From the IMG/VR virus record IMGVR_UViG_3300035670_001223, positions 1 through 24,112 of that record: 24,112 nucleotides of DNA; one strand, written 5' to 3'. Shown piece by piece: positions 4,413-23,125 of this stretch. The notes below the pieces were generated by a model. That model was given only the letters and a program-made list of their open reading frames with translations, did no database searches and was not told the DNA's origin. The first letter of the stretch is position 1. Each line of letters begins with the position of its first letter. The DNA comes from a virus. The position numbers were made by a program, and so were the translations under genes.

Positions 4413-4424
4413 TTATTGCAATAA
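4413..4424. promoter_or_regulatory. Palindrome TTATTGCAATAA at the start codon of the next gene
   Basis: A perfect 12-bp inverted repeat lies between the ribosome binding site AAGGAG (4407-4412) and the ATG at 4424. It contains the 10-bp palindrome TAYTGCARTA, which recurs at 17872, 20314, 20554 and 23116. Its position suggests an operator or another protein-binding site, but the binding partner is unknown. Confidence 0.5.
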
Positions 4425-4831
4425 TGCAACACAGCAATCAACAGATGCCCTCCGGGCATTCCTTCGATCAATCCAGGAACCTGGCAGTTGAGATGCTTCA
4501 GGCGGCTGAGAAACACATGGCCGACCGGGCTCGAACTCACGACGCTCCCGGAGGGGAGCGCTCTATAGCCAAGACGGTAGCGGCCTTCAATGCCCTGACC
4601 GGGAAAGACCTCAGTGAGACCGAGGGCTGGACCTTCATGGCGCTCTTGAAGATTGCCCGAGCCAATCAGGGTGCGTTCCGTGCCGACAACTATGAAGACC
4701 TCGTGGCCTACGCAGCACTGGCTGGGGAGTCTGCTCATCAGGAGAATCAAGCCAATGAGTCTGCTCGCATGGCTTCCACACTTCCGGACCGAGTATCTCG
4801 CAGTTCTACCAGCGAACTGCCCCTGCGGTAA
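4424..4831 (+). CDS. DUF6378-like (MazG-type fold?) small phage protein
   Basis: This 135-residue soluble protein has a core at about 33-102 (RARTHDAPGGERSIAK, then LLKIARANQG, then DNYEDLVAYAALAGE) that fits the DUF6378 family: an N-terminal R-x-x-T-H, a central L-x-K-I-A-R helix, and a terminal D-N-x-x-D-x-x-x-Y-x-x-L-A-x-E. The spacing of acidic and basic residues recalls all-alpha MazG-like nucleotide hydrolases, but function is unproven. ATG4424 has AAGGAG with an 11-base spacer. A second candidate, ATG4493, would leave the repeated hairpin element (4445-4479) outside the coding region while keeping the whole conserved core, so the start is uncertain. It follows nrdA by 15 bases and probably shares its transcript. 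The C-terminal 30 residues are low in conserved features and overlap the next small ORF. Confidence 0.75.
   Translation: MQHSNQQMPSGHSFDQSRNLAVEMLQAAEKHMADRARTHDAPGGERSIAKTVAAFNALTGKDLSETEGWTFMALLKIARANQGAFRADNYEDLVAYAALAGESAHQENQANESARMASTLPDRVSRSSTSELPLR
4445..4479 (+). repeat. Two-hairpin repeat element, copy 1
   Basis: This 35-base stretch matches 8157-8191 at 29 of 35 positions by hand alignment. It begins with a 6-bp stem and three-base loop (ATGCCC-TCC-GGGCAT, 4445-4459), then contains GATCAATCC. A second small hairpin, CCAGG-AA-CCTGG, follows at 4473-4484. The loop reads GGA on the opposite strand. It overlaps the 5' part of the DUF6378-like ORF. Confidence 0.6.
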
Positions 4832-4952
4832 ATGCCAGATCGCTGTGCGCATACCTCGGCATGACATGGACGAGTACGAGCTGGTCCTGAAGCTGCAGGG
4901 GGTCGTTGCCTTCGGTCGTACCTGGCGACCCAAGGTCACCCGCATCAAGTAA
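4755..4952 (+). CDS. Small cysteine-containing protein, unknown
   Basis: A 65-residue ORF begins in another frame inside the end of the preceding gene and runs 121 bases beyond it, filling the gap before the next gene. ATG4755 has AGGAG about 9 bases upstream. The N-terminus is hydrophobic (MSLLAWLPHF), followed by NCPCGKCQ, a C-x-C-x-x-C cluster that could bind metal, and a charged C-terminus ending in KVTRIK. I do not recognise a family. It is supported by the ribosome binding site, the otherwise empty gap and reasonable codon use; it could still be chance. Confidence 0.45.
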   Translation: MSLLAWLPHFRTEYLAVLPANCPCGKCQIAVRIPRHDMDEYELVLKLQGVVAFGRTWRPKVTRIK

Positions 4953-4959
4953 CCCACCC

Positions 4960-4979
4960 GGGGCAGGGCCACCTGCCCC
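4960..4979 (+). other. Perfect 8-bp stem-loop before the nuclease gene
   Basis: GGGGCAGG (4960-4967) pairs with CCTGCCCC (4972-4979) around the tetraloop GCCA. No T-run follows, so it is not a standard intrinsic terminator. It may stabilise or mark a processing site in the message between the small ORF and the nuclease gene. It is similar in size to the hairpin at 10838-10857. Confidence 0.55.
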
Positions 4980-4999
4980 CACCCTCACAGGCATCCACC

Positions 5000-5974: not shown

Positions 5975-5982
5975 GAGAAACC

Positions 5983-8136
5983 ATGAAACCGTTTGACCAA
6001 ATGAGCTTTCACCCGCTCAGCGAGCAGATCGTCTCCGCGATTCGCAAGAAGACTGGCATCAACAACACCCAGTTCTACCGCATCGTGGTGGCCTCCCACC
6101 TCAGCAATATGGCTTCATCGATGAACGTGAAGCTGCGCCTGAGCCCCAAGGAGACCCAGGCGATCAACTTCTTCGGCATTGCCCTGTCAGCCTCTGGCAC
6201 CGGCAAGGACTACTCCATGAAGATCATGGAGGAGAACGTCACCAACCAGTTCGTAGAGCGTTTTCTGGAAGAGACCTTCCCGACCCACGCCGAGGACAAC
6301 CTGCCGAAGCTCGCGGTCAAACGAGCTGCCCGCAAAGCCAGTGACCCTGACACAGAGCTGGACCTGGTTTCCACCGAGTACAAGCGGCTCGGTCCCCCGG
6401 TCTATGCCTTCGACGGGGCCACCATCGCGGCGGTGCGGCAGTTCCGCCACAAGCTGCTGATGGCCAACCTGGGTGCCCTGAACATGCAGGTCAATGAGAT
6501 TGGCGCCAACCTGCTCTCCAAGCAGGACGAGCTCAAGGCATTCATCGAGCTCTACGACGGCAAGATCAAAACCAGCCTGACTAAGAACACCCAGGACAAC
6601 GCCCGCAACGAGGAGATCATCGGCAACGTCCCCACCAACATGCTGCTGTTTGGCACCCCGGCCATGCTGCTGCAGACCGGTTCCAAGCTGGAGGAGAACT
6701 TCCACCAGTTCCTGGAGACCGGCTATGCCCGTCGCTGCTTCTTCGCCTACTACACCGGCAAGGGTGACCAGACCCAAGCCAAGCTCACTCCTGAAGAGGA
6801 GCTGAAGCAGCGGTTCGATACCAACACCGACACCTTCCTGGAAGACATCTCAGAGCATTTCGCCAACCTGGCTGACCTGATGTATGCCCACTCCGAGATC
6901 ATCGTCCCCGAGGCCGTGTTGCTGGAGTCGATCCGCTACAAGCAGTCCTGCGAGGAGCGCGCCTCCGACTTCCGTGAGCACCAGATCGTGCTGCAGCAGG
7001 AGATGAAGAATCGGCACTACAAGATGCTCAAGCTGGCCGGGGCCTACGCCTTTGTCGACGGCTCTCCGGAAGTCACCCTGGATCACCTGGAGAACGCCAT
7101 CAAGCTGGCCGAGGAATCGGGAAAGTGCTTCCGCAACATCACCATCCAGGAGAAGCCCTACGAGAAGCTGGCACGCTACATCGCCAGTGTCGGGGATGAC
7201 CTGACCCACGCCGATCTGGATGCCGCACTCCCCTTCTACCCGAAGGTCGCAGGCCAACGGTCGGACATGCTGCAGATGGCCACAGCATTCGGCTACCGCA
7301 ACAACATCATCATCAAGAAGGCCTTCAACGACGGGATCGAGTTCCTCCGGGGTGAGACCCTGCAGAAGACCAACCTGGAGAAGATGGTGGTGGCCTACTC
7401 GACTGACATCGCCACAGGCTACCGCAACGAGCACGCCCCCTGGGACGAGTTGCACAAGCTCACCCAGGCCCAGGGCATGCACTGGATCAACCACCACGTC
7501 CATGGCGGCCACCGTCAGGAGGACAACATCATCCCCGGCTGTAACATGCTGGTCTTCGATGTGGATGGCACGGCCCCGCTGCACACAGCCAAGATGCTGC
7601 TCGAGGGCTACAAGGCGCTGTTCTACACCACCAAGCGCCACCAGCAGGATGGCCAGGATCGCTTCCGCATCATCCTACCCACCAACTTCAACCTCAACCT
7701 GGATGCCAAGGACTTCAAGGAGTTCTACCGGAACGTGATGGACTGGCTTCCCTTCGAGGTGGACGAGGCCTGCGGTCAGCGTGCCCGTAAGTGGTTGGCC
7801 CACTCCTTCCACCATGAGTACACCGATGGTGAGCTTTTCGACGTGCTGCCCTTCATCCCGAAGACCAGCAAGAACGACGAGCGTAAGAAGGTGCTCGAGA
7901 CCCAGCAGCATCACGACAACCTCGAGCGGTGGGTACTGAACAACAGCGGCGACGGTAACCGTAACAACATGCTGCTGCGCTACGCCATGATCCTGGTCGA
8001 TGCCGGTTTCCATGAGACCGAGATTCGCCACCGGGTGATGGACCTCAACGCCAAGATGCCTGACAAGCTCGATGAAGTGGAGATCCTCAGCACCATTATG
8101 GTCAGCGTGACCAAGGCAGTGGCCAAGCGTCCGTAG
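5983..8136 (+). CDS. Helicase-primase: N-terminal DUF3987-like ATPase, C-terminal archaeo-eukaryotic-type primase
   Basis: This 717-residue protein appears to have two parts. Near the N-terminus is a P-loop, ALSASGTGKD (67-76), inside a DUF3987/YfjI-like ATPase region reaching to about residue 390. The C-terminal part carries the signatures of an archaeo-eukaryotic primase: the metal-binding LVFDVDG (523-529, D526 and D528), TTKRHQ (549-554, H553), DRFRIILP (559-566), and VDEACGQRARKW (593-604, possible third acidic residue D594). It would make primers and move along DNA at the phage fork. The usual phage order is primase first and helicase second; here it appears reversed. AGGAGA overlaps the preceding stop codon and gives a clear start. 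By position it corresponds to the primase-type core gene (gp42 region) of N4-like phages, from memory. Confidence 0.85.
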   Translation: MKPFDQMSFHPLSEQIVSAIRKKTGINNTQFYRIVVASHLSNMASSMNVKLRLSPKETQAINFFGIALSASGTGKDYSMKIMEENVTNQFVERFLEETFPTHAEDNLPKLAVKRAARKASDPDTELDLVSTEYKRLGPPVYAFDGATIAAVRQFRHKLLMANLGALNMQVNEIGANLLSKQDELKAFIELYDGKIKTSLTKNTQDNARNEEIIGNVPTNMLLFGTPAMLLQTGSKLEENFHQFLETGYARRCFFAYYTGKGDQTQAKLTPEEELKQRFDTNTDTFLEDISEHFANLADLMYAHSEIIVPEAVLLESIRYKQSCEERASDFREHQIVLQQEMKNRHYKMLKLAGAYAFVDGSPEVTLDHLENAIKLAEESGKCFRNITIQEKPYEKLARYIASVGDDLTHADLDAALPFYPKVAGQRSDMLQMATAFGYRNNIIIKKAFNDGIEFLRGETLQKTNLEKMVVAYSTDIATGYRNEHAPWDELHKLTQAQGMHWINHHVHGGHRQEDNIIPGCNMLVFDVDGTAPLHTAKMLLEGYKALFYTTKRHQQDGQDRFRIILPTNFNLNLDAKDFKEFYRNVMDWLPFEVDEACGQRARKWLAHSFHHEYTDGELFDVLPFIPKTSKNDERKKVLETQQHHDNLERWVLNNSGDGNRNNMLLRYAMILVDAGFHETEIRHRVMDLNAKMPDKLDEVEILSTIMVSVTKAVAKRP

Positions 8137-8156
8137 TCAGCCACAACCCTCACGAG

Positions 8157-8211: not shown

Positions 8212-8230
8212 TCAATCCAAGGAGTATGAG

Positions 8231-8674: not shown

Positions 8675-8733
8675 CCGGACGTTGTTTACGGGACACCCCC
8701 GCTTCGTCCCCTCTGCTATGGAGTAATCACCGT

Positions 8734-9465
8734 ATGACCCAACAAGTCAACGACAATCTGGTGCTGCTGTGTGGCAAGTCTGCTGCAGGCAAAAGCGCCT
8801 CCCTGATGGGGCTCAAGAACCCCGAAGGCGTGATGTACCTCAACTGCGAGGCGGGTAAACGCCTCCCCTTCCGTAGTAAATTCAAAGAGTTCGTGGTCGT
8901 CGATCCCCTGCAGATCAACGAGGCCTTCGATGCGGCCGAGAACATGCCCGAGATCCACACCATCGTGGTGGACTCCCTGACCTACCTCATGGACATGTAC
9001 GAGTCCCTGTACGTGATCAACAGCACAAACTCGATGAAATCGTGGGGGGATTTTGCACAGTATTTCAAGACCATGATGCAAAGCTACGTGGCGCGCTCCT
9101 CTAAAAACGTGATCTTCATTGCCCACGTTAAAGACACCCTTAATGAGTCAGAAATGGTGATGGAGACCGCCGTACCCATCAAGGGCAGCATCAAGAACAA
9201 CGGCGTCGAATCCTACTTCAGCTGCATCATCGCGGCCAAGAAGGTCAAGCTGAAGGATCTCGAGAAATACAGCTCCGAGCTGCTTACCATCACTCCCGAT
9301 GAAGAGGCACTGCAATACAAATACGTCTTTCAAACTAAGCTTACGAAGGACACAGTCAACGAGCGCCTGCGTGGTCCCCTTGGTCTCTGGGACAACAACG
9401 AGACTTACATTGATAATAATATGCAGCTCGTTTTGGATCGACTTCACGAGTACTACAATGGCTGA
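8734..9465 (+). CDS. Sak4-like RecA-type ATPase (recombination)
   Basis: This 243-residue P-loop ATPase has Walker A LCGKSAAGKSAS (12-23) and Walker B HTIVVDSLTYL (75-85, D80), followed by a sensor-like KNVIFIAHV (124-132). Short RecA/Rad51-like proteins of this shape in phages are called Sak4 and promote single-strand annealing or strand exchange together with a phage SSB. The SSB gene lies one gene downstream, which agrees. GGAG is about 10 bases before the start. GC content falls visibly in the second half of the gene, from about position 9000, at the side next to the homing endonuclease. The gene's last 8 bases overlap the endonuclease start. It may correspond to gp44 of N4, from gene order. 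Confidence 0.8.
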   Translation: MTQQVNDNLVLLCGKSAAGKSASLMGLKNPEGVMYLNCEAGKRLPFRSKFKEFVVVDPLQINEAFDAAENMPEIHTIVVDSLTYLMDMYESLYVINSTNSMKSWGDFAQYFKTMMQSYVARSSKNVIFIAHVKDTLNESEMVMETAVPIKGSIKNNGVESYFSCIIAAKKVKLKDLEKYSSELLTITPDEEALQYKYVFQTKLTKDTVNERLRGPLGLWDNNETYIDNNMQLVLDRLHEYYNG

Positions 9466-10015
9466 GTTCACCCTGAGTTCCCACGCAAAAGACCTTACAG
9501 GCGTCCGCTTTGGAAGCCTGGTCGCCATTAAGCCCCTGGGTAAGAAGGGGAGAAATGTCCTGTGGGAGTTCTTGTGTGACTGCGGCTCTTCTTACACGTC
9601 AGAGGGGTGCTGGGTGACTGCGCAAAAACGCAAAGCAACCAACCCCTTGGCGCCTAGTTGTGGTTGCCTTAATCGGCGCACCACAAAGGAACTTCGCCTG
9701 ACCCATGGCTTCTCAAAGCACCCATTATTTTGGGTTTGGGTAGCCATGCGGGAAAGATGTTACAACCCAAATCACCCTGACTACTCCAAGTACGGAGCGA
9801 AAGGGGTGACTATCTGCAATAGCTGGAAAGACGATGCAGGCGCCTTCATCAATTGGGCGTTAACTAACGGGTGGCAAAAAGGACTGCATCTGGATAAAGA
9901 CATCCTTTCCTACGCCCAAGGAATCGTCCCCACATACAGCCCCACTACATGCCAGTTTATAACCCCCGCTGAGAATAGTAGGGCCACGTGGGGCTGGTTA
10001 GAAAAGAACACCTAA
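9458..10015 (+). CDS. HNH-type homing endonuclease, free-standing
   Basis: This 185-residue protein has the order of a known phage family. It starts with LTGVRFGSLVAIKPLGKKGR and an N-terminal zinc-binding region (CDCG, then SCGC). Next comes the HNH half with LTHGFSKHPLFWVW, MRERCYNPNHPDYSKYG and VTICNSWKDD, ending in LDKDI and YSPTTCQFITPAENSR. Such enzymes cut DNA at a site lacking their own gene and spread by repair. GC is about half, clearly lower than most of the window, which marks a late arrival. ATG9458 overlaps the preceding stop by 8 bases; the longer frame upstream lies inside the ATPase gene and is not conserved. No intron or intein is visible, so it is free-standing between two replication genes. 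Confidence 0.85.
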   Translation: MAEFTLSSHAKDLTGVRFGSLVAIKPLGKKGRNVLWEFLCDCGSSYTSEGCWVTAQKRKATNPLAPSCGCLNRRTTKELRLTHGFSKHPLFWVWVAMRERCYNPNHPDYSKYGAKGVTICNSWKDDAGAFINWALTNGWQKGLHLDKDILSYAQGIVPTYSPTTCQFITPAENSRATWGWLEKNT

Positions 10016-10028
10016 TCCAATCCATCCC

Positions 10029-10054
10029 TGCTGCGTTATTGCAGCACTGCAGTA
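10029..10054 (+). promoter_or_regulatory. Leader of the SSB gene: hairpin and overlapping TGCA palindromes
   Basis: In the 68-base gap before the SSB gene, TGCTGC pairs with GCAGCA around the loop GTTATT (10029-10046). The same bases contain two overlapping near-copies of TAYTGCARTA: TATTGCAGCA at 10037 and CACTGCAGTA at 10045, one mismatch each. The 13-mer TGCGTTATTGCAG (10032-10044) is repeated exactly at 23111-23123, before the giant gene. It is likely a regulatory site; whether it acts as DNA or RNA is unclear. Confidence 0.5.
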
Positions 10055-10083
10055 CCTAACCTAAACCAAGAAGGAAGATCACT

Positions 10084-10830
10084 ATGTCACTGCTTTCCGG
10101 CCTCACTATCGACAACTCCATCCAGACCGAAACTGACGTCCTTGGCGGCGGCGGTCCTCTGGAATCCGGCCTCTACAAGGCCACCGTCACCCTGGCCTAC
10201 CTCCAGAAGTCCAAGGGCGGCGCCCTGGGTCTGGTCACCCACTTCAAGAGCGACCAGGGCCGCGAGTTCCGCGAGACCCTGTGGATCACATCCGGTGATG
10301 CCAAGGGCAACAAGAACTACTACGAGAAGGACGGCGAGAAGAAGTACCTGCCTGGCTTCCTGATGGCGGACGCGCTGTGCCTGCTGACCGTGGGCCGCGG
10401 CATCGCTGCCATGGACACCGAGCAGAAGGTCGTCAACGTCTACAGCTACGACGCCAAGGCCGAAGTCCCGACCAAGGTCGACATGCTGGTGGACCTGCTG
10501 GGCCAGGAGATCCTGGTCGGCCTGCTCAAGCAGACCGTGGACAAGAACGTGAAGAACGATGCCGGCGCCTACGTGCCCTCCGGTGAGAGCCGCGAGGAGA
10601 ACGTCATCGAGAAGCTGTTCCGTGCCCGCGACAACATGACCACCGCCGAGATCCGCGCCCAGGTGCCGGAAGCCACCTTCTACAAGTCCTGGGAAGAGAA
10701 GTGGGCCGGCAAGACCCGCGACCGTACCACCAAGGGTGCTGTCGCTCCGGCCCGTACCGGTGCTCCGATGGCCGGTGCTGCTGCAGGTGCCCCGGCAGCC
10801 GGCCGTCCGACCAATTCACTGTTCGGCTGA
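10084..10830 (+). CDS. Single-stranded DNA-binding protein (N4 gp45-like by position)
   Basis: This 248-residue protein has an OB-fold-like N-terminal part (ESGLYKATVTLAYLQKSKGG, LVTHFKSDQG, FRETLWITSGD), followed by a mixed region to about 205. A flexible Ala/Gly/Pro tail (about 215-243) ends in the short tip NSLFG. This layout, fold plus linker plus conserved tip, is that of an SSB. In N4 the corresponding protein coats DNA for replication and also activates virion-polymerase and late host-polymerase transcription. Codon choice is strongly biased to C/G-ending codons and the ribosome binding site is strong (AGAAGGAAG), in line with high expression. The assignment rests on architecture and gene order rather than on a motif unique to SSBs. 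Confidence 0.75.
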   Translation: MSLLSGLTIDNSIQTETDVLGGGGPLESGLYKATVTLAYLQKSKGGALGLVTHFKSDQGREFRETLWITSGDAKGNKNYYEKDGEKKYLPGFLMADALCLLTVGRGIAAMDTEQKVVNVYSYDAKAEVPTKVDMLVDLLGQEILVGLLKQTVDKNVKNDAGAYVPSGESREENVIEKLFRARDNMTTAEIRAQVPEATFYKSWEEKWAGKTRDRTTKGAVAPARTGAPMAGAAAGAPAAGRPTNSLFG

Positions 10831-12258: not shown

Positions 12259-15200
12259 TCAGCGGAACGGACTGAGCATGGTCTTGAGCAGGATCGGCTC
12301 GTCCCAGGCATCCAGCATCTGCACCGGACCTTCCCGCAGCGGGTTGCGAAGCAGCTGCTGGGTAAACCAGGAGTCCTGGATCGTGGAGAGATCCCCCAGG
12401 GCCATCGACAGCATCTTCAAGGCGATCGCCCGGCCCGGGTGTTCCCGGTACAGGTGGTAGATCGCCCGCTGGATGCGCATGTAGTACTTGGTGAACATCA
12501 GCACACCCTTGTCGTTCAGGTACTGCATCTGTGGCGAGGTCGGGATGTCGTAGTTCACGAACATGTCGCTGGCTTGCTGGATGGCATCTACCTTGGCCAT
12601 CGGGTTGCGCTTCCGGGTGGTCAGGTACTGGAACAGGGTGTAGCGAGCCACGAAGTCAGAGAGCTGCGTGGACTTCGACAGCACCTTGTAGGCCGGGGTG
12701 TCGTGGGTCATGTACAGGGTCTTGGCCGCGTTCATCAGCGGTGCCGGCACCATGTCCAGGTACGGCCCAGCCTTCTCCTCCAGGTAGCTCTTGAAGGGGG
12801 AGAACTGATTCTCGTGCACATCGACGTCTTCCACGATGGTCGGCATCAAGCCAGCATCGATCAGCTCCTTGACCGGGTTGCGGGCAATCGCGTCCTGAAG
12901 TTCCAGGATGCGCTGCTCGATCTCGGTCTGGCGGCCCTGGATGTAGCCGGCATCGAGGAGCTGCTGCAGCTGGGTGAGCTCGTTACGATCGCGCTGATAG
13001 TCCAACGCGCCCTGAATACCTTCCTTGTGCAGTCGCGCCATGTCGGCCATGGGCACCCCGTGCCACCACAACACCGTCACGTTGCTGATCACGTTGAACC
13101 ACAGCGTGGTCAGGTTCTTGATTACTACGTTGTCCTTGACCGCGGTGACCAGGCCCTCGGCCGCCATCGAGCCCTGGCGCATGCGCAGGTAGGCCTTCTC
13201 TCCGAACACTGCCTGCAGGGTGTTCACGAAGATGGTTTCCGCGACGTTACGCTCCTCGGCATCCTTCTGGAACACGTTGGAGAAACGCATCTTGCGGTAG
13301 CCGAAGTTGATGTTCACCAGGTCGGTGCGCACCATGATCTCGGCCTTGCCCCAGATCTCAATCGCGGCTTGCTTGGTGTCTTCCGGCAACAGGTCCCAGT
13401 GCTCCTTGAGCTGCGGGTCTACGCTGTCTGGGGCCACCCGCACGTAGGAGTGCGGCATCTCCTGGTACTCGGCGTCGTACTGATCCTTGAGAGCCTGGAC
13501 GATTACCCGGTTGTGGTCCTTGGAGGTCTGCTTGTCCGCGGTCTGGCCGACCAACATGCCCAGCACGTCCTCGATGGCGTTGTCCCGCTCGAGCAGCGCG
13601 TCCTTCTGCTGCTCGCTCATCATGTAGCGGTAGTTGACGATCTCCCCACGCTCATTGACCACCGGCACGTAGAAGGGGCCACGCTTCGCTTCCTTGCGTG
13701 GATCGAAGCCAGCACCCAGAGACGAAAGCCGCTCGTAGGCCTTGGCGTTCCTGGCCCGGATCTCCGCAGTCATCTGGGCGTTCTTCTTGAACACCCCCGT
13801 GTAGCCGGCCTTGCTCAGACCCGCGTGCACCGTGGAACCCTGGGCGCGCTCACCGGTGAAGGACAGGGTGCCGGTCACCCGACGAGCCTGGCCACCGTCC
13901 TTGATGCGCATCAGGTACTGCTGCTCGGCCCGCGGGTCGGTACGGTCCTTGGGCAATGCATCCACCTTGGTGTAGCCAATCGCTTCGAGCTCGGCTGCCC
14001 GGGATTCGTTGACCACCTCCAGGGTGATGTTCGGGTTGTAGATTTCCGGGGTGTAGCCCTTCTGCATCAGGGTCGGGGAACCGTGAAACAGCGCTTCCAG
14101 GGCCTCCTGCTTCATGGCCTTGTGCAGGCCCAGGATGAACTCGATACCGTTGCCGTCCTGCCGCTGGTTCTCGACACGCAGCACCTCACGAACTTCAGCC
14201 AGCTGGTTTCCGTCACTGTACTGCAGGGCGTAGAGAGTGATCAGCGGATCGAGAATCGCCAGGGCCGCGTCTGCCTTAGTAACATCCACCTTGCCGGCAT
14301 GCTGCGTCCCACCCAGGTGCGCGATGTTGTGGGCGTTCAGCATCACGTTCTCGGCCGGTGCCACACCCCACGCCATCTGATAGCCCAGGGCCTTGGCGCT
14401 GGCCAGGTAGAAGTTCAGGTGCGGGCCGCCTAGCGCTGTCAGATCGGCCTCCAGGGTAGCCGCATAGCTGCTCGGATCCGCCAGGATCGCGTCGAGCTCT
14501 GCCACCGTGAAGCGGTCCAGCAAGCTGGCCATGTCGGTGCGCAGGGTGACCTGAGTCAAGGCCGCCTTGGCCGACTTGGTGAGGTACTCCCCGCTGTGCT
14601 TGAAGGCCGCCATGACGTTGGCCCGGGTGTTGTCGATCATGCTCAGACGCATGTTCTCCAGGCGCTTGGTCTCCCGCAGCAGCATCTGGGCTACCTTAGT
14701 GGCCTTGTCCCAGGCGCCCTGCACCTCGGTCACTGCCGAAGCCAAGATGCCTTCACGCACCTTGCCCATCTCGTGGTTGCCCTGCTTGATGGCCGCGGTC
14801 AGGTGATCCAGGCGGCCGGCTGCAGTGGTCTCGGCCAGGGCGGCTGCCGCACGCACGGCAGCGAACTTGTTGTTCTGCAGGAAGGGCAGCTGCGCGGCCT
14901 GCTCCACCTTCTCCGCGACCTTGAAGTTCAGTCCGTCGGTGAGCTCGCTGATCGCATCCAGAATGCCGGCACGGCCTCGGGCCAGGAGTTCCTGGCGACG
15001 GGTCTCGGCGTCTACCAGGTGCATCATCAGACCTTCGATCCGGCTACCGGCCACATCCCCACCGCGCACGCCCAGGGTGAAGCCATGAGCCGTATCGACA
15101 ACGTGATCCCAGACCATCTTCAGGGTGTCGCCCAGACGGCCTTGCGGATTCACCGGTGCCGGCCGATCGGTCTCGAACTGCAACTTCTCGCGTAGACCCG

Positions 15201-18200
15201 GGTGCACCATGGCCAGGGCAGCGAAGCGGCTCAGGTGGTTGGTCATTCCCTTGCGGTCGTTGGCCTGGATGCGGAACACGAAGTTGTGCTTGGCCGCCGC
15301 GGCTGCCCGGGATTCCGGTGCTGCCAGGGCCCAATCCCCCTCCAGGAAGTCCTCGGGGGTGATCCGCTGCCCAGCCTCCTTCCACACCTTGGCCAGTTCC
15401 TTGTAGGCCACCGGGTCCGCGTTCAGAGTCTCGCGCATCACCAGCTCAACCTGCTCGAGCACGAAGCTCTGCTTCTCGTCCAGCTGGAAGCCTTGAGACA
15501 GGGTCTCGGAACTGAACGGCATGAAGTTCTCGTTCACCGCCCGGTTGAAGACCTCCAGCGGCGTCAGCGGCCGGTTCTCGGCTACCTGAGCAAACCAGGC
15601 ACCGAAGGGGCCATGGACCTTCTGCACCACGTTGGAGAGCAGGTGATCGAGTACCGGGTCCTGGGTGCCCGGCAGGGCCTCCAGAATCTCCAGGCTGCTC
15701 ATCTCGGCCACACTGCTGGCTGCCTGTGCCAGGGTCAGCTCACGCTGCTGCTGGGAGGCTTCCCGGCTCTTCTGGGCTTGGGCCATGACGCCAGAAACAC
15801 TGGCCACCAGTACCGACAGTCCGTTGGTCTGCTGCTCGGCTTCGCTCTTCTGGCTGCCACGGAACAGGATCCCGCGGATGGTCTCCAGGAACTGGCGCAT
15901 CCCGGTGATTAGGCTGTTGCCCTTGGGTGCCGGTACGCTGATCTGGTTGAGCACCTCCTGCTGGAAGCGCAGGTTGGTCATGCCCCAGGCCACCAGCTCG
16001 TGCACGCTGCTCAGCGCATCCTCGAAGCCAGTGATCTGCTGCTCCGCGGCGTAGGCCCGGGCCTTCTTCAACAGGCTCTCGAGAGTCCCCACCAGGGCCT
16101 TCACCTCGGCGTTGGCCGGGTTCTCGATCTGCAAGGCCACGGCCGCATGGATCAGCTCGTGGATGATGGTTTCGGTGGTCAGGCCAGAGTCAGTGAACGA
16201 CGGGCTCTTGAGGAAGATTCGACCTTCTTTCATCCCCTCGGTGGTGTACCAGCCACGGGCATTAGAGACCGGGGCTGCCCCCACCTCGGAGGCCGGATGG
16301 TTCGGGGTGAGCATGGTCACGGTCACCTCGGCCGGTAGGCCACGGGCCACCTGAACCAGCACCTCCCGATAGAAGGCCGCGGTACGGCCCTTGGGCATCT
16401 GCTCAACCAGACGTAGGGCCTGCTTCGCCACCTGACGCGCGGAGACCTGGTCCCCCGCCTTGATGAAGAAGTCGACCCAGCGCGGATCGCTGGGAATGCG
16501 GGCCGGACCCACCTCGCCCCACACGCTCTGCAACCCAGCACGGTTGGCTTCTGCCTGCAGGGCCGCCAGGGCCTCAGTCGCCTCGATCTCCGGCACTGTG
16601 GCCAGGGCCTGTTCCAGGTTGAAGCCAGTCTGTTGATCCAGTGCTTCGGAGACCCGGGCCACGGCATCGTTGCCGTCCGCCTGGGCACGCTCGATCAGAT
16701 CCAGTACCAGGGCTTCAGGCTGAGTCAGTACCGATACAGTGGAGGGCACCGGGGCCTGGGCATTCGGATCGAACAGCTTCTGAACTTCCGGCTCCGGCAG
16801 GGCCAGTTGGGTATCGCGCTTGCGGCTGCTCGCCGCGGCGCTCTCCTGCTGGGCCTTCACATTGCGGAACCGGTCCTTGGCTACCTTGCTGGCTTCCAGG
16901 ACCTGGGCATCCGGGCTACGCAGGGCAGCCTGGGCGGCACGCTCGGCGTTGGCTTGCTGCTCCTGGGGCGACACCACATGGTTGCCCTCGAGCATCGGGT
17001 ACTGGTCCACCGCGGCCATCTCGCTCAGAGCAGTCAGGCGGGTCTTGTCCGCGTGCCGGGAAGCCCGAACCGCGTAGTCGAGCACCAGGCCGACGCCATC
17101 CTGGGGCTGGGCGTTGTACCAATCCCAGTCGAGCTCGCCCATGGTCTTGCGCATGTAGGCCTTGGCCGACTGATTGGAGAGCCGCTTGTAGCGGGCTGCC
17201 AGCTCAGACTTGGGATCGATGTCCTTGAACACCTCGAAGAAGCCAGTGGCAGTACGTTCCAGGGCCTGGGTGATCTCGTCAGACACCGAGTATTCACCCA
17301 TCACCTCGTAGGTGGCTTCGTTCAGGGCCTTGGCCACCGCCTTGGCATCCTGAGCAGCCACGATCTCAGCGTCATGGACGTTGAGTGCCTGGAGCTTGCT
17401 GTAGGCCTGCGAGGCGATGTAGCTGTCCGTGGAGTGGATCGCCAGGATGATAGCGGCCACACCCGGAGCCAGCGGAGTGCTCTCCATGCCGTAGTTGGTC
17501 TTGGTCTTCGGACTGCCGGCCGGGAAGTACCCTTCCGCGAACTTGGAGACGGTCATGTAGGCCTGGTCGTCGGAAACCTGCTGACCGTTCTTGGCCAGGT
17601 AGATCCCATTCTCCCGGGTGTCCCCGGAGAGCTTGGTCCAGGCCGAGTGGATCACCGGCTCCATGAACTTCAGCTCGTCACGGATCTCCTGCAGCTGCTG
17701 GGCACTCAGGTCCATGGCCGGCACGTAGCTGACGACCCCGTTGCGGGTGACCTTCTCGTAGGGCAACTGGCTGTTGGCCATCAGGTACTTGAGCTTCTGC
17801 TCACGCTTGTACTCGAAAGCCAAGTCATACAGCTCGAAGGCCGTATTGGCGGCGTTGTTTACTGCGTCACGTATTGCAATAAAGGTGTGGAACTCGCGCT
17901 TCAGCGTCTGCTCGATGACTTCCCCGAAGGAGCGCTTGAAGGCTGCCTTCACTGCGTTGGCTTGGGCCCTGGTCAGCTGCTTGGTCGCGGCTTCCCGATC
18001 CATGGCGACGTCGAGCTTTTGACCGTCCGGCAGGAAGCGGTTGATCAGGGCCAGACTGTCAGGCACCGACAGATCGCCCTCGTTGTTCAGGGCCGCCTCG
18101 ACCTTGTCGTAGAGAGCGTGGAGGAAGTCATCTGCCATGCCGTCCACCACGTTGTTGATCCCCGAGCCGAACATCAGCGCGGTGATAGGGGTCTTCACCA

Positions 18201-21200
18201 GGTTGCGGCCTTCGCTGGTCACACCACCGTCGGCAGAGGTCAGCGGGCCAGTCACGGCGTAGACCGCGTCCAACAGGTCCGCCATCTCGGGACTGGCTTG
18301 GGCAGCACGATGCGCCAGGCGCACCATGGAACGCGCCGTGGCCTTGTAGAGGTCCTGGTTGTTCGGATCCTGGGCCCAGTCCGCTACCTGGGTGAAGCCA
18401 GCGTCCTTGCCGAAGAAGCCGCCCGCGGCAATCCGGGACAGGAGACCCCCTGAGTCTTTGCCGGCACCCAGCATCAGCATGGCCAGCATCGGGCCGTTGG
18501 TCTTGCCGTCCACTTCCCGGGTCAGAGTGTGGGTGAAGGACTCCGTACCGGGGGTAGCCCGGGCGTTCTCGTAGTGGGCCAGGGCCAGCAGGGCATCCAG
18601 GCTGTGGAACTTCTCTCCGCCCTTCTTCACGGCCGCTTTGATCAGGGCCGCATCGTTGTCCTCGGCCACTTCCCCATTCAGCGCGCGCTGCAGGGCCTTC
18701 ACGCCATCGGCAATCACCATCTCTTGGGCCTTGGCCTGAGCCTCCTCAAGTGACTTACCGGTGCCCTGGGCATCGGTCTTCACGCCAAGACCTTCCCCCA
18801 CGGCAAGCCAGAAGTCCTGCATGTGCTCGGCATTGGTCAGACTGGCTTCGGTCTGCCAGCCTCCCATCCCGGTCAGCAGACGATGCAGCTTGTCGGCCTG
18901 GGGGTTGAACAGGTTCTCTTCCAGGCCTACGCGCTGAGGCTTCCACATGTTGCGGTTGAAGAAGAACGGCTGCTTGAGCTCGGGGTCCTCGGAACGCACC
19001 AGGGCGATGAACTCCTTGGCTTGGTCCAAGCTGCGCTGCACGGAGTCGTTCTTGCCCTTCACGCTCTCGCTGTTAGCGCTGTGCAGGGTACGGGTGCTGG
19101 TGTCGATCCAACCCCCGATCTCCAGGAACAGCTGCTCCGGCAGCGCCTCCAGCAGGGTCACCGCATCGCTGCGCAGGTAGTGGGCCTTCTTGTTCTCCTT
19201 GGCGAGGATCTCGCGCATCGCCATGGGCACGCCACGGTCAGTGTTCTTGATTGCCTTCTGGGCGTACTTGGGTGCCTGGAAGCTTGGGGCCTTGTTGCCT
19301 TGCTCCATGCCGAACAGGTTGGCGATCACCCCCTGGGTGCCCTTGGCGGTGTCTTTGATCTGGGCGAGCTGTGCCTGAGCATCCGGGGTCTGGGCCAGCG
19401 CGTAGAAGTAGTGCTGGATCTTGGCGTCCCCGGACTCCTCAGTGCCCATCAGTGACTTCAGCTCGGCATCGGAGATCGTGGTCTTGGTCACCAAACCTTC
19501 CACTTCCAGCAGCGCCAGAATGCGGTTGCCCAGTGCCGTCTCCAGCTTGGCGATGCTGCTCAGGCTGGCATCCGGCAGGGCGTAAGCGCCCAGTGCCTGG
19601 GCAGCCCGACGACCTAGCTGATTGACCAGCAGGCCCTCACGGGTGCCGGCACCGGCCAGACGACGCTGCAGGGCCAGGGGTACGCTGCCCATTTCGTTGC
19701 CAAACATCTGGGCGATGGTTTCCTCGGTGTTGGTCGGAGAGCGTGTGCCCTGCTCGACCAGCCAGCCGAAAGCCCCGGCACTCATGGCGGTCCACACGTT
19801 CTGCTCCACAGCACCGGTCTGCGGATCACGCAGGTACTGGAAGAAGTCCTCCAGGTAGTAAGTGTTGTCGGCACGCAGCGGGGGAAGTCCTGCCTCGAAG
19901 CCCGCCTGCCAACGGTTGGCATACTCGGTGAACAGATCCACCAGATCGGCCTGGGCCGAACTCATCTCGGAAGCCAGGAACCTCTGAGCGAACTCCTCCC
20001 CACGCAGCTGGGAGATCTCGGACAGGAAGTTCTCGACCTCGACCAGAGGCTGCTCAGAGGTGGCGTTGCGACGCTGCCGGCCCTGACGAATGCCCGCGGT
20101 GACGGCATTGACCACTGCCCGGTTGGCCTGGGTCACCGGCTCCACAGCATTGCTGATTGCCCGCTTCACCGCGGCTACCTTGCCCTGACCACGCTTCTTC
20201 TTGGTCTCCGCTACCTTGGCTTGCACGGTGTCGCCCAACAGATCCACTTCGGCCGGCTGCGGTTGCACACCCTGCACTGCTGCAGGACTGCTTTGGGTAG
20301 TGGCTTGCTGCGCTACTGCAGTACTGCCCTCAGCAGCCACAGGCCCTGTGTCCGGGGCGTAGGTCACTGAAGCCTCACCTTCGATCGGGGCAGGGCTTAC
20401 GACGGGTGTTTCGGGAGCAACAGTGAGGCTGGCTTCCTGCTCAACCGAACCAGAACGTACTGCAGCAACGTCTTCATCAACAGCTGGTGGAGTGGCTTCA
20501 ATACTGACCTCCTGCTGTACGGCTGTAGGGGCTTCCTGCTGTACTGTGTTACTTACTGCAATAGCTGTAGCCAGGCTCATCACGGCCTGCATTTCTGCCT
20601 GGGCCGCCTGCAGTGCTGAAGCCTCTGCCTCAATGGCAGTCAGGGTGCCCTTGTTGTTGGAGTTGCGGTGGATGATCATCGCACCGCTCTCATCGCGCTC
20701 TTTTTTACTTGGGATGGTCTCGGTAATGGCCCAGCTACCATCCTCCTGGGGGATCACCGCCAACCGGTTGTTGGTGCCCTCTACCTGACGGAAGGCCTGC
20801 CACACCATCTCGTTCTTGGACCCATGATCAGCTGCAAAGCTCTCAAGGAGTCCCATCAGGCGCCCGGCCGTCTCGGTATCCCCGGCCTGCACCGCCGCGG
20901 TGATGCCACTGCGGTACTGGACGATGCCCAGTGACCCAGTCTGTCGGGAACCCTGGAACACTTCCATGTTCACGCCATCAGTGCCCAACGCCACATTGGC
21001 CGCAGCCTGAGCCTCACTGAAGCGGACCAGGAATTCGCGCTGCTCCGGTGCCAGGACCTCAGTCTGCAACAGAGCACTGGCTTGCTCCAGGGTCACTGAC
21101 TCCGGGTTGGCCATGGCCAGGGTAATCACCTGCTGGACGGCATCAGGGCTGCCCTGGAGCGCCTGATCCACGCTGGCCTGTACATCGGTGCCGGCTGTGC

Positions 21201-23088
21201 TCTCGCCCACCAGACGGCTGTGCACACGCTTGATGGCCTCCAGGTCAGACTTGGCCATCTCGACGCTGCGCTCAGTCATCTCCCGATCGGAATCCGTGAC
21301 GCGCTTCACACGCTCGAGCTGCTGCTCCATAGCGGCAATCACCCGCTCCTGCAGCTGGGCTTCCTCGGTGGTCTTGTCCGCAAGCTCCTTGAAGCTGGCT
21401 TTCTCATCACGCAGGGTGCGCTGCAGATCGGTCCGGTACTCCCGAGTCTCCTGGTACATCGCTTGCTCGGCCTGAGCCACACTGGCCACAGCCGCTTCCA
21501 TGACCTGTCCGATCTGGCCCATGGTCTGGGTACGCTCTTCCGCAGAGAGCTCGGCGCTCTTCAGGCGCATGTCCAGGGCCAGGACCGCCGCCAGGGGGTT
21601 GAAGGACTCGCTCTGGGTATCGACCAGGGTACTGACGTCCCCGCTCTGTGCCGCGGCCTGGGCGAGCTCCATGGCCCGGGTAACGTGGGCACTGCGAACC
21701 CGCTGCGCTACACCCGCGTTGTGGGCCTTCTCCTCAGTCAGTCCGAAGACCTCGTGGACGATCCGGGCACCACCGGACATGGCACCACCCGCACCACCGC
21801 CCAGGACGGCACCCTGGTAGATCTCGAACCCGGAGGCCGGCTGGTAGGTGGCCTCACCCTCGGTGTAGGTCTGAATACCCTCGGCCAGGGTCTCGGCAGC
21901 CGTACCCGCGGCACCGTGGCGGGCCACGTTCATGCCGGACCGCACCAAGCCAGTGGCTACCGCCTCAGCGGGGCGCATGGTGGGGGTCATCAGCTTGATC
22001 AGGGTGGTATCCCCGATCGCCATGGCGGCCGTCCACGCGAAGGCGTTGGTGGCCATGTACTCGAATTCTTCCTGGGAGGGTAGGGCACCGTTGTGTGCCT
22101 TCTGGTAGTTCACCACCCCCTGGCGCAGCAGATCCATACCCTCGGAAGCCATCACAGTGGTATAGGCACCCCCCGATACCGCGGCCAGGGCCAGCTGAGG
22201 TGCCTGCTCTGCGACTACCTGTGCGGTAGCACCCGGGTTCATCACCAGGGCCGTACCGCCCTGCATGGCCAAGCCAGTCAGTGCTGAGACGGTGTCAATG
22301 ATCCCGAACTTCAGATCACCATCCTTCAGCCGCTGCATGGCGGTGCCCAGGTCCTTCAGGCCCTGGTCACTACGCCAGGCCAGCTCTTCGGAGAACCGGG
22401 TCATCTTGACCGGGTCCACGATACCTTCCGGCGCCTCACGGGACTCCTTGATGGCCCCGCCCAGACGACGGCTCAGCTCACCAGTAACTAGGCGTGCCTC
22501 ATTGCTGATCGGCGGGGTGTACCCCGCATAGGTCTCGGGAGTCTGGCCAGGCACCAAGCCATCCTGGACCATCTCGGTGAAGAGCGAGGGCCGGCGTGCT
22601 TTCGGCCGCTGATCCAGGATCTCCTGATCACCAGGCAGCTGCTCACCCGCTTGCTTGCGGTTGAACGCTTCACGCGCTTCGGTACTGACGTTGCCCTCCA
22701 GCAGCGCAGCCGTCGCATTGAACGGGGCCGCCAGGGTACTGCCTTCCATACTTGCAGCCCGGTCACGGATCGTGGCTGCCAGGTTGACGGGCTGGAACCA
22801 GAAGTCCTCTTCATGCAGTCCCAGCTTGGTGGTCCACGCATCCTGACGGGCAGCGAGCTCTTGGCGCTTGGCTTCGGCAGCAGCAGCGACACGCTCCTGA
22901 CGCTGCTGGGAGACGTACTCTTGAATGCCTGTGAGGCCCCCACGTTCAGTACCACTGGAGATCAGCTGGTCTCTCTCTGCTCGCATGCGGCTTTCGAAGG
23001 CATCTACCCCGCTGGTGGACTCAACCAGCTTTGCCCGCTCCTGCTGCATGCGGGCCTCGAAGTCCTTGAGTACGTTCTGCTCCGCCAT
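12259..23088 (-). CDS. Giant virion RNA polymerase, N4 gp50-like
   Basis: This 3609-residue protein is comparable to N4 vRNAP (about 3500, from memory). N4 vRNAP is packaged, injected with the DNA, and transcribes early genes from hairpin promoters. The N-terminal third has a duplicated FExRM motif (10-45), hydrophobic Gly/Ala stretches (about 265-310 and 410-440), a coiled coil (about 530-640) and a Pro/Gln/Ala linker (about 840-960). The central part holds the polymerase motifs: NMWKPQRV with R1386 (the T/DxxGR region), EVDGKTNG with D1527 (motif A), R1628-N-L-V-K1632 with F1640-G (motif B), H1885-S-T-D1888, and V-H1905-D1906 (motif C). The C-terminal part has HELIH at 2310-2314 with E2364, a zincin signature, and an end region recalling large polyvalent phage proteins (about 3470-3600). 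AGGGG is 7 bases before ATG23088. The family identity is inferred from motif order and spacing. Confidence 0.88.
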   Translation of the reverse strand: MAEQNVLKDFEARMQQERAKLVESTSGVDAFESRMRAERDQLISSGTERGGLTGIQEYVSQQRQERVAAAAEAKRQELAARQDAWTTKLGLHEEDFWFQPVNLAATIRDRAASMEGSTLAAPFNATAALLEGNVSTEAREAFNRKQAGEQLPGDQEILDQRPKARRPSLFTEMVQDGLVPGQTPETYAGYTPPISNEARLVTGELSRRLGGAIKESREAPEGIVDPVKMTRFSEELAWRSDQGLKDLGTAMQRLKDGDLKFGIIDTVSALTGLAMQGGTALVMNPGATAQVVAEQAPQLALAAVSGGAYTTVMASEGMDLLRQGVVNYQKAHNGALPSQEEFEYMATNAFAWTAAMAIGDTTLIKLMTPTMRPAEAVATGLVRSGMNVARHGAAGTAAETLAEGIQTYTEGEATYQPASGFEIYQGAVLGGGAGGAMSGGARIVHEVFGLTEEKAHNAGVAQRVRSAHVTRAMELAQAAAQSGDVSTLVDTQSESFNPLAAVLALDMRLKSAELSAEERTQTMGQIGQVMEAAVASVAQAEQAMYQETREYRTDLQRTLRDEKASFKELADKTTEEAQLQERVIAAMEQQLERVKRVTDSDREMTERSVEMAKSDLEAIKRVHSRLVGESTAGTDVQASVDQALQGSPDAVQQVITLAMANPESVTLEQASALLQTEVLAPEQREFLVRFSEAQAAANVALGTDGVNMEVFQGSRQTGSLGIVQYRSGITAAVQAGDTETAGRLMGLLESFAADHGSKNEMVWQAFRQVEGTNNRLAVIPQEDGSWAITETIPSKKERDESGAMIIHRNSNNKGTLTAIEAEASALQAAQAEMQAVMSLATAIAVSNTVQQEAPTAVQQEVSIEATPPAVDEDVAAVRSGSVEQEASLTVAPETPVVSPAPIEGEASVTYAPDTGPVAAEGSTAVAQQATTQSSPAAVQGVQPQPAEVDLLGDTVQAKVAETKKKRGQGKVAAVKRAISNAVEPVTQANRAVVNAVTAGIRQGRQRRNATSEQPLVEVENFLSEISQLRGEEFAQRFLASEMSSAQADLVDLFTEYANRWQAGFEAGLPPLRADNTYYLEDFFQYLRDPQTGAVEQNVWTAMSAGAFGWLVEQGTRSPTNTEETIAQMFGNEMGSVPLALQRRLAGAGTREGLLVNQLGRRAAQALGAYALPDASLSSIAKLETALGNRILALLEVEGLVTKTTISDAELKSLMGTEESGDAKIQHYFYALAQTPDAQAQLAQIKDTAKGTQGVIANLFGMEQGNKAPSFQAPKYAQKAIKNTDRGVPMAMREILAKENKKAHYLRSDAVTLLEALPEQLFLEIGGWIDTSTRTLHSANSESVKGKNDSVQRSLDQAKEFIALVRSEDPELKQPFFFNRNMWKPQRVGLEENLFNPQADKLHRLLTGMGGWQTEASLTNAEHMQDFWLAVGEGLGVKTDAQGTGKSLEEAQAKAQEMVIADGVKALQRALNGEVAEDNDAALIKAAVKKGGEKFHSLDALLALAHYENARATPGTESFTHTLTREVDGKTNGPMLAMLMLGAGKDSGGLLSRIAAGGFFGKDAGFTQVADWAQDPNNQDLYKATARSMVRLAHRAAQASPEMADLLDAVYAVTGPLTSADGGVTSEGRNLVKTPITALMFGSGINNVVDGMADDFLHALYDKVEAALNNEGDLSVPDSLALINRFLPDGQKLDVAMDREAATKQLTRAQANAVKAAFKRSFGEVIEQTLKREFHTFIAIRDAVNNAANTAFELYDLAFEYKREQKLKYLMANSQLPYEKVTRNGVVSYVPAMDLSAQQLQEIRDELKFMEPVIHSAWTKLSGDTRENGIYLAKNGQQVSDDQAYMTVSKFAEGYFPAGSPKTKTNYGMESTPLAPGVAAIILAIHSTDSYIASQAYSKLQALNVHDAEIVAAQDAKAVAKALNEATYEVMGEYSVSDEITQALERTATGFFEVFKDIDPKSELAARYKRLSNQSAKAYMRKTMGELDWDWYNAQPQDGVGLVLDYAVRASRHADKTRLTALSEMAAVDQYPMLEGNHVVSPQEQQANAERAAQAALRSPDAQVLEASKVAKDRFRNVKAQQESAAASSRKRDTQLALPEPEVQKLFDPNAQAPVPSTVSVLTQPEALVLDLIERAQADGNDAVARVSEALDQQTGFNLEQALATVPEIEATEALAALQAEANRAGLQSVWGEVGPARIPSDPRWVDFFIKAGDQVSARQVAKQALRLVEQMPKGRTAAFYREVLVQVARGLPAEVTVTMLTPNHPASEVGAAPVSNARGWYTTEGMKEGRIFLKSPSFTDSGLTTETIIHELIHAAVALQIENPANAEVKALVGTLESLLKKARAYAAEQQITGFEDALSSVHELVAWGMTNLRFQQEVLNQISVPAPKGNSLITGMRQFLETIRGILFRGSQKSEAEQQTNGLSVLVASVSGVMAQAQKSREASQQQRELTLAQAASSVAEMSSLEILEALPGTQDPVLDHLLSNVVQKVHGPFGAWFAQVAENRPLTPLEVFNRAVNENFMPFSSETLSQGFQLDEKQSFVLEQVELVMRETLNADPVAYKELAKVWKEAGQRITPEDFLEGDWALAAPESRAAAAAKHNFVFRIQANDRKGMTNHLSRFAALAMVHPGLREKLQFETDRPAPVNPQGRLGDTLKMVWDHVVDTAHGFTLGVRGGDVAGSRIEGLMMHLVDAETRRQELLARGRAGILDAISELTDGLNFKVAEKVEQAAQLPFLQNNKFAAVRAAAALAETTAAGRLDHLTAAIKQGNHEMGKVREGILASAVTEVQGAWDKATKVAQMLLRETKRLENMRLSMIDNTRANVMAAFKHSGEYLTKSAKAALTQVTLRTDMASLLDRFTVAELDAILADPSSYAATLEADLTALGGPHLNFYLASAKALGYQMAWGVAPAENVMLNAHNIAHLGGTQHAGKVDVTKADAALAILDPLITLYALQYSDGNQLAEVREVLRVENQRQDGNGIEFILGLHKAMKQEALEALFHGSPTLMQKGYTPEIYNPNITLEVVNESRAAELEAIGYTKVDALPKDRTDPRAEQQYLMRIKDGGQARRVTGTLSFTGERAQGSTVHAGLSKAGYTGVFKKNAQMTAEIRARNAKAYERLSSLGAGFDPRKEAKRGPFYVPVVNERGEIVNYRYMMSEQQKDALLERDNAIEDVLGMLVGQTADKQTSKDHNRVIVQALKDQYDAEYQEMPHSYVRVAPDSVDPQLKEHWDLLPEDTKQAAIEIWGKAEIMVRTDLVNINFGYRKMRFSNVFQKDAEERNVAETIFVNTLQAVFGEKAYLRMRQGSMAAEGLVTAVKDNVVIKNLTTLWFNVISNVTVLWWHGVPMADMARLHKEGIQGALDYQRDRNELTQLQQLLDAGYIQGRQTEIEQRILELQDAIARNPVKELIDAGLMPTIVEDVDVHENQFSPFKSYLEEKAGPYLDMVPAPLMNAAKTLYMTHDTPAYKVLSKSTQLSDFVARYTLFQYLTTRKRNPMAKVDAIQQASDMFVNYDIPTSPQMQYLNDKGVLMFTKYYMRIQRAIYHLYREHPGRAIALKMLSMALGDLSTIQDSWFTQQLLRNPLREGPVQMLDAWDEPILLKTMLSPFR
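15997..16161 (-). other. Zinc metalloprotease signature inside the giant protein
   Basis: H2310-E-L-I-H2314 is preceded by TTETII and followed by AAVALQ, so it is a helix of the gluzincin or minigluzincin kind. E2364, in VHELVAWGMTN, lies 50 residues later and is a fitting third zinc ligand, because similar phage-encoded proteases have H-E-L-x-H-A followed by E-F/L-V-A. A mobile-looking beta segment (EVTVTMLTPN, GRIFLKS) precedes it. The substrate is unknown: self-processing, the host envelope or another virion protein are possible. Confidence 0.65.
17371..18933 (-). other. RNA polymerase catalytic core of the giant protein
   Basis: This spans R1386 to D1906. Distances between key residues are 141 (R to motif A Asp), 105 (motif A Asp to motif B Lys) and 274 (motif B Lys to motif C Asp). 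The N4 mini-vRNAP values, as I recall its residues R424, D559, K670 and D951, are 135, 111 and 281. T7 RNA polymerase (R425, D537, K631, D812) has 112, 94 and 181, so N4 is the better match. The residue at the position of T7 Tyr639 / N4 Tyr678 is Phe1640 (codon TTC at 18171-18169). Confidence 0.85.
17872..17881. promoter_or_regulatory. TAYTGCARTA palindrome inside the polymerase gene
   Basis: TATTGCAATA is a perfect match to the recurring palindrome. It lies in coding sequence (Ile-Ala-Ile, ATT GCA ATA) and uses the ATA codon, which is rare in a genome of this GC content. That suggests the DNA motif itself is kept. Confidence 0.4.
20200..20570 (-). other. Disordered interdomain linker of the giant protein, with clustered palindromes
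   Basis: Residues about 840-963 are rich in Ala, Val, Pro, Gln, Glu, Ser and Thr (TAVQQEVS, VAPETPVVSP, AVQGVQPQPAEV) and end before a basic patch (KKKRGQGKVAAVKRA). It separates the N-terminal third from the polymerase. Two perfect TAYTGCARTA palindromes (20314-20323 and 20554-20563) and one near-copy (20458-20467) lie here. Part of the repetition follows from repeated Val-Gln-Gln-Glu codons. Confidence 0.6.
22954..23061 (-). repeat. Duplicated FExRM motif at the N-terminus of the giant protein
   Basis: Residues 10-24 (FEARMQQERAKLVES) and 31-45 (FESRMRAERDQLISS) match at 8 of 15 positions, with further similar residues. It is a short tandem protein repeat directly at the N-terminus. It could be a packaging or anchoring signal; no function is known to me. 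Confidence 0.5.
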
Positions 23089-23115
23089 TTACCGACCCCT
23101 GTGCCGTTGTTGCGT

Positions 23116-23125
23116 TATTGCAGTA
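23116..23125. promoter_or_regulatory. TAYTGCARTA palindrome before the giant gene
   Basis: TATTGCAGTA lies 28 bases upstream of the start codon of the giant gene, between the attenuator-like hairpin (23142-23169) and the ribosome binding site. The surrounding TGCGTTATTGCAG (23111-23123) is identical to 10032-10044 before the SSB gene. A further near-copy, CATTGCAAGA, starts at 23129. It probably has a regulatory role. Confidence 0.5.

Follow-up and report, generated by a model that had tools for sequence, protein, structure and literature searches.

Arrays of 8-bp boxes in an N4-like phage as putative sites of the partition protein of a probable phage-plasmid

Introduction

A system close to the one treated here is the ParABS system of RedRock, an extrachromosomal cluster A actinobacteriophage which persists as a plasmid with the help of ParA and a partner protein that binds DNA, and whose parS-L and parS-R are each described as eight directly repeated 8-bp motifs (PMC7157519). 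The likeness to our sites lies in the length of the repeat. RedRock is another kind of phage and its described repeats are found at loci near par or repA, whereas the sites presented below are spread genome-wide upstream of lytic genes.

Many short sites scattered over a phage genome are also described for the cluster A mycobacteriophages L5 and Bxb1, where these stoperators are dispersed repressor sites which block transcription of the prophage (PMC6550527). In that description the stoperators are 13 bp long, lie mostly in one orientation and are bound by a dedicated immunity repressor, whereas we deal with tandem palindromic 8-bp boxes, for which orientation is undefined and which are probably bound by a partition protein.

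Dispersed centromere sites are known from N15. As a prophage N15 is a plasmid of low copy number which is actively partitioned and has more than one centromere site, and our phage would resemble it in these respects (PMC7205306). The partition protein described for N15 is a ParB of the SopB type and its centromeres are long inverted repeats at four sites, IR1-4, whereas here we find a small protein and many 8-bp arrays. None of these phages, RedRock, the stoperator phages or N15, is N4-like. Related as well are the cassettes of ParA and a small protein on proteobacterial plasmids, which share the overlapping small downstream gene and the tandem 8-bp arrays at par; they differ in the box, which is TACGTA-like or ATAGCATT, and they belong to plasmids and not to phages. 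Tandem 8-bp palindromic boxes are also the target of MetJ, the host regulator of the methionine genes, but the sequence of the met box and its function are different.

N4-like phages have long been considered strictly lytic. A survey of N4-like phages from 2023 describes integrases and integrated proviruses, and the word plasmid is absent from its main text (PMC10654107). Our literature search, which covered few subscription papers, found no report of a phage-plasmid among N4-like phages or Schitoviridae. The present analysis starts from a 10-bp palindrome, TAYTGCARTA, which had been noticed to recur in a stretch of viral DNA of 24,112 bp, in the following called the window.

Results

The phage and its continuation

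The window has an N4-like gene set which codes for a virion RNA polymerase (vRNAP), an N4-type single-strand DNA-binding protein (SSB; 10084-10830, plus strand; phrog_743, E=2.9e-75), a primase, an exonuclease, a Sak4-like protein, a ribonucleotide reductase and ThyX. The giant vRNAP gene (12259-23088, minus strand; phrog_2206, E=0, 1963 bits) codes for 3,609 amino acids, in agreement with the more than 3,000 expected in Schitoviridae. The last 127 bases of the window (23986-24112) are 100% identical to the first 127 bases of another record, G010 (IMGVR_UViG_3300035670_000470, 42,468 bp), and the two have no other long similarity. Since assemblers leave end-to-start overlaps of this sort where two contigs adjoin, G010 evidently continues the window and is taken to be the same phage. 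It contains homologues of RNAP1, RNAP2, DNA polymerase, the major capsid protein (MCP), portal and TerL; window and G010 together hold the N4-type SSB, primase, exonuclease, two-gene RNA polymerase, capsid and portal that mark Schitoviridae.

The second RNA polymerase subunit is a single frame in G010, whereas in the relative G001 it is split in two frames with another gene between them (L130 3751-5524). An HNH endonuclease gene of the window (9299-10015) is missing in the close relative L005, whose DNA is 95% identical to the window over the primase region and in which the Sak4 gene reaches the SSB leader directly; the HNH gene is probably a recent insertion.

Tandem boxes with a period of 8 bp

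Perfect copies of TAYTGCARTA are found at 4414, 17872, 20314, 20554 and 23116, that is five in the window against 0.01 expected (sd 0.10), and none of 100 dinucleotide shuffles reached five. When one mismatch is allowed the number is nine against 0.58 expected, the additional copies being at 9308, 10037, 10045 and 20458. All these coordinates had been given in the original prediction and were correct on recount. Three perfect copies lie in the vRNAP gene. The original prediction had proposed codon-preserving shuffles and a count over the full genome, and both came out in its favour: when the vRNAP gene was shuffled 5,000 times among synonymous codons, eight shuffles had one perfect copy and none had more, and G010, taken as the same phage, has five further palindromes against 0.03 expected. 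G001 has eight in 42.8 kb. A motif common to the N4 family was considered and rejected, because 83 other loci carry nine copies against 7.9 expected; 20 other N4-like records of 51-80 kb each (1.43 Mb together) have only six palindromes in total.

When the sites were lined up, further half-matches appeared 8 bp away. The sites are tandem rows of two to about seven AYTGCART boxes with a period of exactly 8 bp, and the palindrome is their strongest single unit. The motif that had been singled out is real, but it had escaped notice that the palindrome is one box of a longer array. For the array score AYTGCART was scored in threes at period 8, giving a maximum of 24, and arrays of at least 19/24 were regarded as strong. 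The consensus was fixed on the window before G001 and two contigs from cultured isolates of Vreelandella and Larsenimonas (see below) were scored. The window has three strong arrays (4415, 10030 and 20307), and the 60 shuffles never came above 18. There are eight arrays in G001 and three in G008, with none at periods 7 or 9-13; six in G010, with 0-1 at other periods; 12 in the Vreelandella contig, with zero at eight other periods; and eight in the Larsenimonas contig, with 0-1 at other periods. Pooling the window and five related sequences gives 40 three-box arrays of at least 19/24 when the period is 8, whereas none of the eleven other periods tried gives more than 0-1. Distances between boxes of at least 7/8 in the six sequences (275,607 bp) show the same periodicity, 8 bp occurring 38 times, 16 bp 17 times, 24 bp 10 times and 32 bp five times, and any other distance up to 40 bp at most twice.

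The highest scoring array of the window (21/24; boxes ATTGCAAT, AATGCAAC and ACAGCAAT) is found at 4415-4438 in the gap between nrdA and a DUF6378 gene (4424-4831, plus strand; PF19905, E=7.4e-11), where it overlaps the start codon of the latter. The second (GCTGCGTT, ATTGCAGC and ACTGCAGT; 20/24) is located at 10030-10053 upstream of the SSB gene, and the third (GCTGCGCT, ACTGCAGT and ACTGCCCT; 19/24) at 20307-20330 within the vRNAP gene, which also contains a weaker array at 20271-20294 whose score of 18/24 was matched by seven of 60 shuffles. A two-box site (GTTGCGTT and ATTGCAGT; 13/16) at 23109-23124 lies upstream of the vRNAP start and contains the perfect palindrome 23116-23125; at the corresponding place upstream of vRNAP in G001 there is no such site. 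Copies just before the starts at 4424, 10084 and 23088 had been noted, and we find an array over the first and arrays or boxes upstream of the SSB and vRNAP genes.

Seen from the single palindromes, those at 4414, 10037/10045 and 20314 lie within three-box arrays and the one at 23116 within the two-box site. By array score the others are single boxes: the perfect palindromes at 17872-17881, outside any array, and at 20554-20563, and the one-mismatch copy at 20458-20467, all within the vRNAP gene, as well as the one-mismatch copy at 9308-9317 close to the end of the Sak4-like gene, which may be incidental. A simple hairpin at the SSB site was also considered and rejected; covarying hairpins can be drawn for the window and L005, but no common hairpin fits the further relatives, which agree with tandem 8-bp boxes instead. 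Among the matches listed in a scan of viral contigs for TGCATTATTGCAATA, most loci have one array or none and have no N4-like protein match.

Placement and conservation of the arrays

The arrays are dispersed over the genome, as are stoperators. With a score of at least 18 the six sequences contain 48 arrays, of which 22 precede the start of a reference gene by at most 100 bp, compared to a mean of 2.8 and a maximum of 10 in 2,000 random placements. The remaining 26 lie outside this zone, several of them within genes. Several arrays follow the terminator of a gene and precede the ribosome-binding site of the gene after it.

The array which the window has upstream of SSB is also present at this position in L005, L012, L089 and L090 and in both isolate contigs, and the recurrence in relatives which the original prediction depended on was thereby observed. 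Among 26 loci inspected upstream of SSB clear boxes are present in five (the window, L005, L012, L089 and L090) and a weak set in L088, and no boxes were seen in the remaining ones; the box-bearing loci belong to those whose SSB or primase is closest to that of the window. L005 and L012 retain the boxes although letters between and inside the boxes vary. Another array, between the capsid gene and the start of the next gene, is shared by G001, G010, L134, L151 and the Vreelandella and Larsenimonas contigs, and L134 also retains arrays before the MCP and portal genes. Both isolate contigs have an array upstream of the exonuclease gene and another upstream of the holin gene, and the latter is also present in G001. 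In the parts examined of 20 N4-like records of 51-80 kb there was no array of at least 19 except for one match each in L163 and L017; for L163 the control periods yield as many matches or more, and L017 is the same contig as L203.

Partition and replication genes

The minus strand of G010 codes for a ParA-family ATPase at 37406-38038 (CbiA, E=6.4e-14), whose nearest solved relatives are a ParA family protein and the plasmid protein ParF. Reading of this strand also gave a gene for a protein of 88 amino acids at 37143-37409, which overlaps parA. Close by, at 38382-38834, the plus strand codes for a winged-helix protein of RepL type (PF05732, 24.8 bits with a cut-off of 20.3). The parA promoter of G010 has a weak site only, below the array threshold. 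ParA of this type was not found in the other 26 of the 27 N4-like records searched, twenty of which are those of 51-80 kb. It was not found in G001, which has eight arrays and whose contig ends inside repL. The RepL-like protein is shared by G010 and G001, while the 20 N4-like records of 51-80 kb do not have it.

A search for ribbon-helix-helix domains (PF01402 and PF03869; RHH_1 in six frames) gave nothing above cut-off. The small protein may be of the ribbon-helix-helix type; it matches no Pfam model, has no relative among solved structures and gave a poor single-sequence AlphaFold2 model (pLDDT 57.8, helices only).

Three copies of TGTGTCAYCCCATG lie before the RepL-like gene and extend over its start (G010 38293-38394; L330 18293-18394). 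They were not found in G001 or the window and are possibly replication iterons. It should also be mentioned that GTAATTACRTATTAC, a sequence similar to the TACGTA boxes of the related plasmids, precedes the array near the early end of G001 (L131 1639-1721) and of G010 (L330 16360-16401).

Cultured isolates

A search of bacterial genomes with the capsid protein gave 11 contigs, and in the parts examined two of them have arrays and nine have none. The two are N4-like and form separate contigs in the assemblies of two Halomonadaceae, one of 75,948 bp in Vreelandella venusta NBRC 102221 and one of 74,886 bp in Larsenimonas suaedae DSM 22428. These two genomes were the ones searched for ParA, and in either of them the sole match (E up to 1e-5) is on the array-bearing contig. 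The two ParA proteins, on G033:C16 and G034:C6, are 58% and 54% identical to that of G010; for the homologues of the 88-residue protein the values are 49% and 42%. An array is located 19 or 33 bp upstream of parA, the 8-bp repeats at the par locus being at 6977-7016 in Vreelandella and at 49490-49513 in Larsenimonas, as compared to the weak site of G010. As replication initiator the Vreelandella contig has RepL (34.2 bits) and the Larsenimonas contig Rep_3 (E=9.8e-38). G010 and both isolate contigs combine phage structural genes with a plasmid replication initiator and partition genes, as a phage-plasmid does. The ends of the Larsenimonas contig are identical over 123 bp, as would be seen if the plasmid were circular but equally if virion DNA had directly repeated ends.

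The phage contig holds 14 of the 23 palindromes of the V. venusta genome and six of the nine in L. suaedae. The rest of the host genomes, with nine palindromes in about 4.2 Mb and three in about 3.1 Mb, respectively, is not enriched.

Plasmid relatives of the partition cassette

Among the matches listed, ParA proteins of plasmids are 51-54% identical to the phage protein. A homologous small gene follows parA in five of the six plasmids examined, namely P. aeruginosa p1, Paraburkholderia pEMT1 and plasmids of Stutzerimonas, Stenotrophomonas and Zymomonas (ParA 52-54% identical), while the sixth, from Allochromatium, has another gene there. The gene order of RedRock-type loci, parA and then a small gene whose product is predicted to bind DNA, is found with a short overlap of the genes in G010, both isolate contigs and these five plasmids. 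The par loci of the plasmids have 8-bp arrays of another sequence, of the TACGTA type in four and with seven copies of ATAGCATT in Zymomonas. The box varies together with a short stretch of the small protein, which reads TKTVRM in the phages with the AYTGCART box and NKTIRI in the four plasmid proteins with TACGTA boxes.

The first 50 of the 71 kb of P. aeruginosa p1 (NZ_CP077972.1, L377) contain ten TACGTA arrays, and seven of these precede a gene by 14-123 bp. The phage is therefore not alone in having such arrays outside the par locus. Between 1418 and 48911 near-identical multi-box TACGTA arrays are found upstream of six scattered genes besides parA, which suggests that the par protein of p1 has a regulon.

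Three further records, L122, L125 and L126, code for ParA and a small conserved protein and have no vRNAP; beside parA they have arrays of one and the same TTGCAATA box with a period of 8 bp, and by score the number of arrays is five, eight and eight, respectively. They are an independent parallel and were set apart from the N4-like comparison.

Discussion

A possible role of the arrays

We propose, with a probability of roughly 0.7, that the arrays are sites at which an N4-like phage-plasmid has its partition protein bound, that the small protein would bind them, and that the phage would be held in a plasmid state in which its lytic genes are silenced. From the neighbourhood of par, the arrays in the parA promoters and the parallel change of the basic stretch and the box we infer that the binder is the small protein encoded directly after parA. 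Dimers of it would occupy neighbouring boxes. At the par locus the bound protein would regulate its own synthesis and form a partition complex which could be moved by ParA. At the dispersed sites, many of which are just upstream of ribosome-binding sites, it would impede transcription of genes for replication, virion and lysis, so that these would be kept quiet while the phage is maintained as a plasmid. Sites within genes may be road blocks to transcription or may only serve partition.

The palindrome had been read as a site for either a regulator which binds DNA or a protein which organises the genome. The conserved places, the strict period of 8 bp, the bias towards positions upstream of genes and the partition cassette nearby support this, and the protein predicted to bind could possibly be both. 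A helix-turn-helix protein of the phage had been expected as the binder; this is probably wrong, the best candidate being the small protein beside parA.

Alternative explanations

The arrays could be operators of a separate phage repressor or regulator, with par and arrays merely travelling together. There are proteins which could fill this role: G010 and G001 have resolvase-type helix-turn-helix proteins (PF02796, E=2.8e-10 and 7.2e-10), G001 has a Cro/CI-type helix-turn-helix protein, and the RepL-like winged-helix protein occurs in these two large array-bearing contigs and, as stated above, in none of the 20 other records. However, the resolvase-type (HTH_7) protein is also found, mostly weakly, in 10 of the 20 N4-like records without the par cassette, and it was rejected as binder because its presence does not track the arrays; the one at L330 997-1446 has relatives in many N4-like phages. 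The Cro-type protein is above cut-off in G001 only, one of eight records. The RepL-like protein does track the arrays in the virus records, but it was rejected as well, since alignment found no relative of it in the isolate genomes, where Vreelandella has a more distant RepL; moreover its gene in G010 has different repeats (TGTGTCAYCCCATG) upstream, and Larsenimonas has Rep_3 instead. Arrays in the parA promoters and 8-bp arrays also at the related par loci of plasmids argue further against a separate repressor, which we consider unlikely.

It is quite improbable that the arrays are promoters or RNA elements of phage transcription, whether for the virion RNA polymerase, the second RNA polymerase or activated late promoters. 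The position of several arrays between a terminator and the next ribosome-binding site is where a promoter would be expected, but the sites are almost absent from N4-like phages with the same polymerases (the six palindromes in 20 records), they are palindromic with no fixed orientation, and they are also found within genes and at parA. The early promoters of N4 are hairpins with a stem of 5-7 bp and a loop of three bases. TAYTGCARTA is a perfect palindrome without a loop and, unlike these promoters, the sites are present also at late genes and within genes.

Sites which serve replication, packaging or condensation of the DNA with no regulation would account for the genome-wide dispersal, the iteration and the location of some arrays within genes. 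They would not account for 22 of 48 arrays being just upstream of genes, far above the random placements, and we regard this explanation as very improbable. That the phage has borrowed the sites of a host regulator is a general possibility, to which we give hardly any weight as the rest of both host genomes is not enriched. Chance or the codon habits of the giant gene, which the single reading frame shared by all palindromes within that gene might suggest, is already refuted by the counts, since 0.01 copies were expected in the window, the codon shuffles fell short of the copies observed and the sites are kept in intergenic regions of relatives.

Implications for N4-like phages

Returning to the partition protein as the binder, the wider proposal would be that a branch of N4-like phages in Halomonadaceae and their kin lives as plasmids, and that one small protein, acting on dispersed 8-bp arrays, both segregates the phage and silences its replication, virion, polymerase and lysis genes; we would put this at about even odds. 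With initiators, a partition cassette and probable sites in the N4-like family, and with two cultured isolates at hand, a temperate plasmid-borne lifestyle becomes directly testable. It also raises the question whether a partition protein could double as the switch between lysis and lysogeny. The array-bearing phage, although from a kind supposed to be strictly lytic, probably lives as a plasmid, and one protein may both segregate it and silence its lytic genes.
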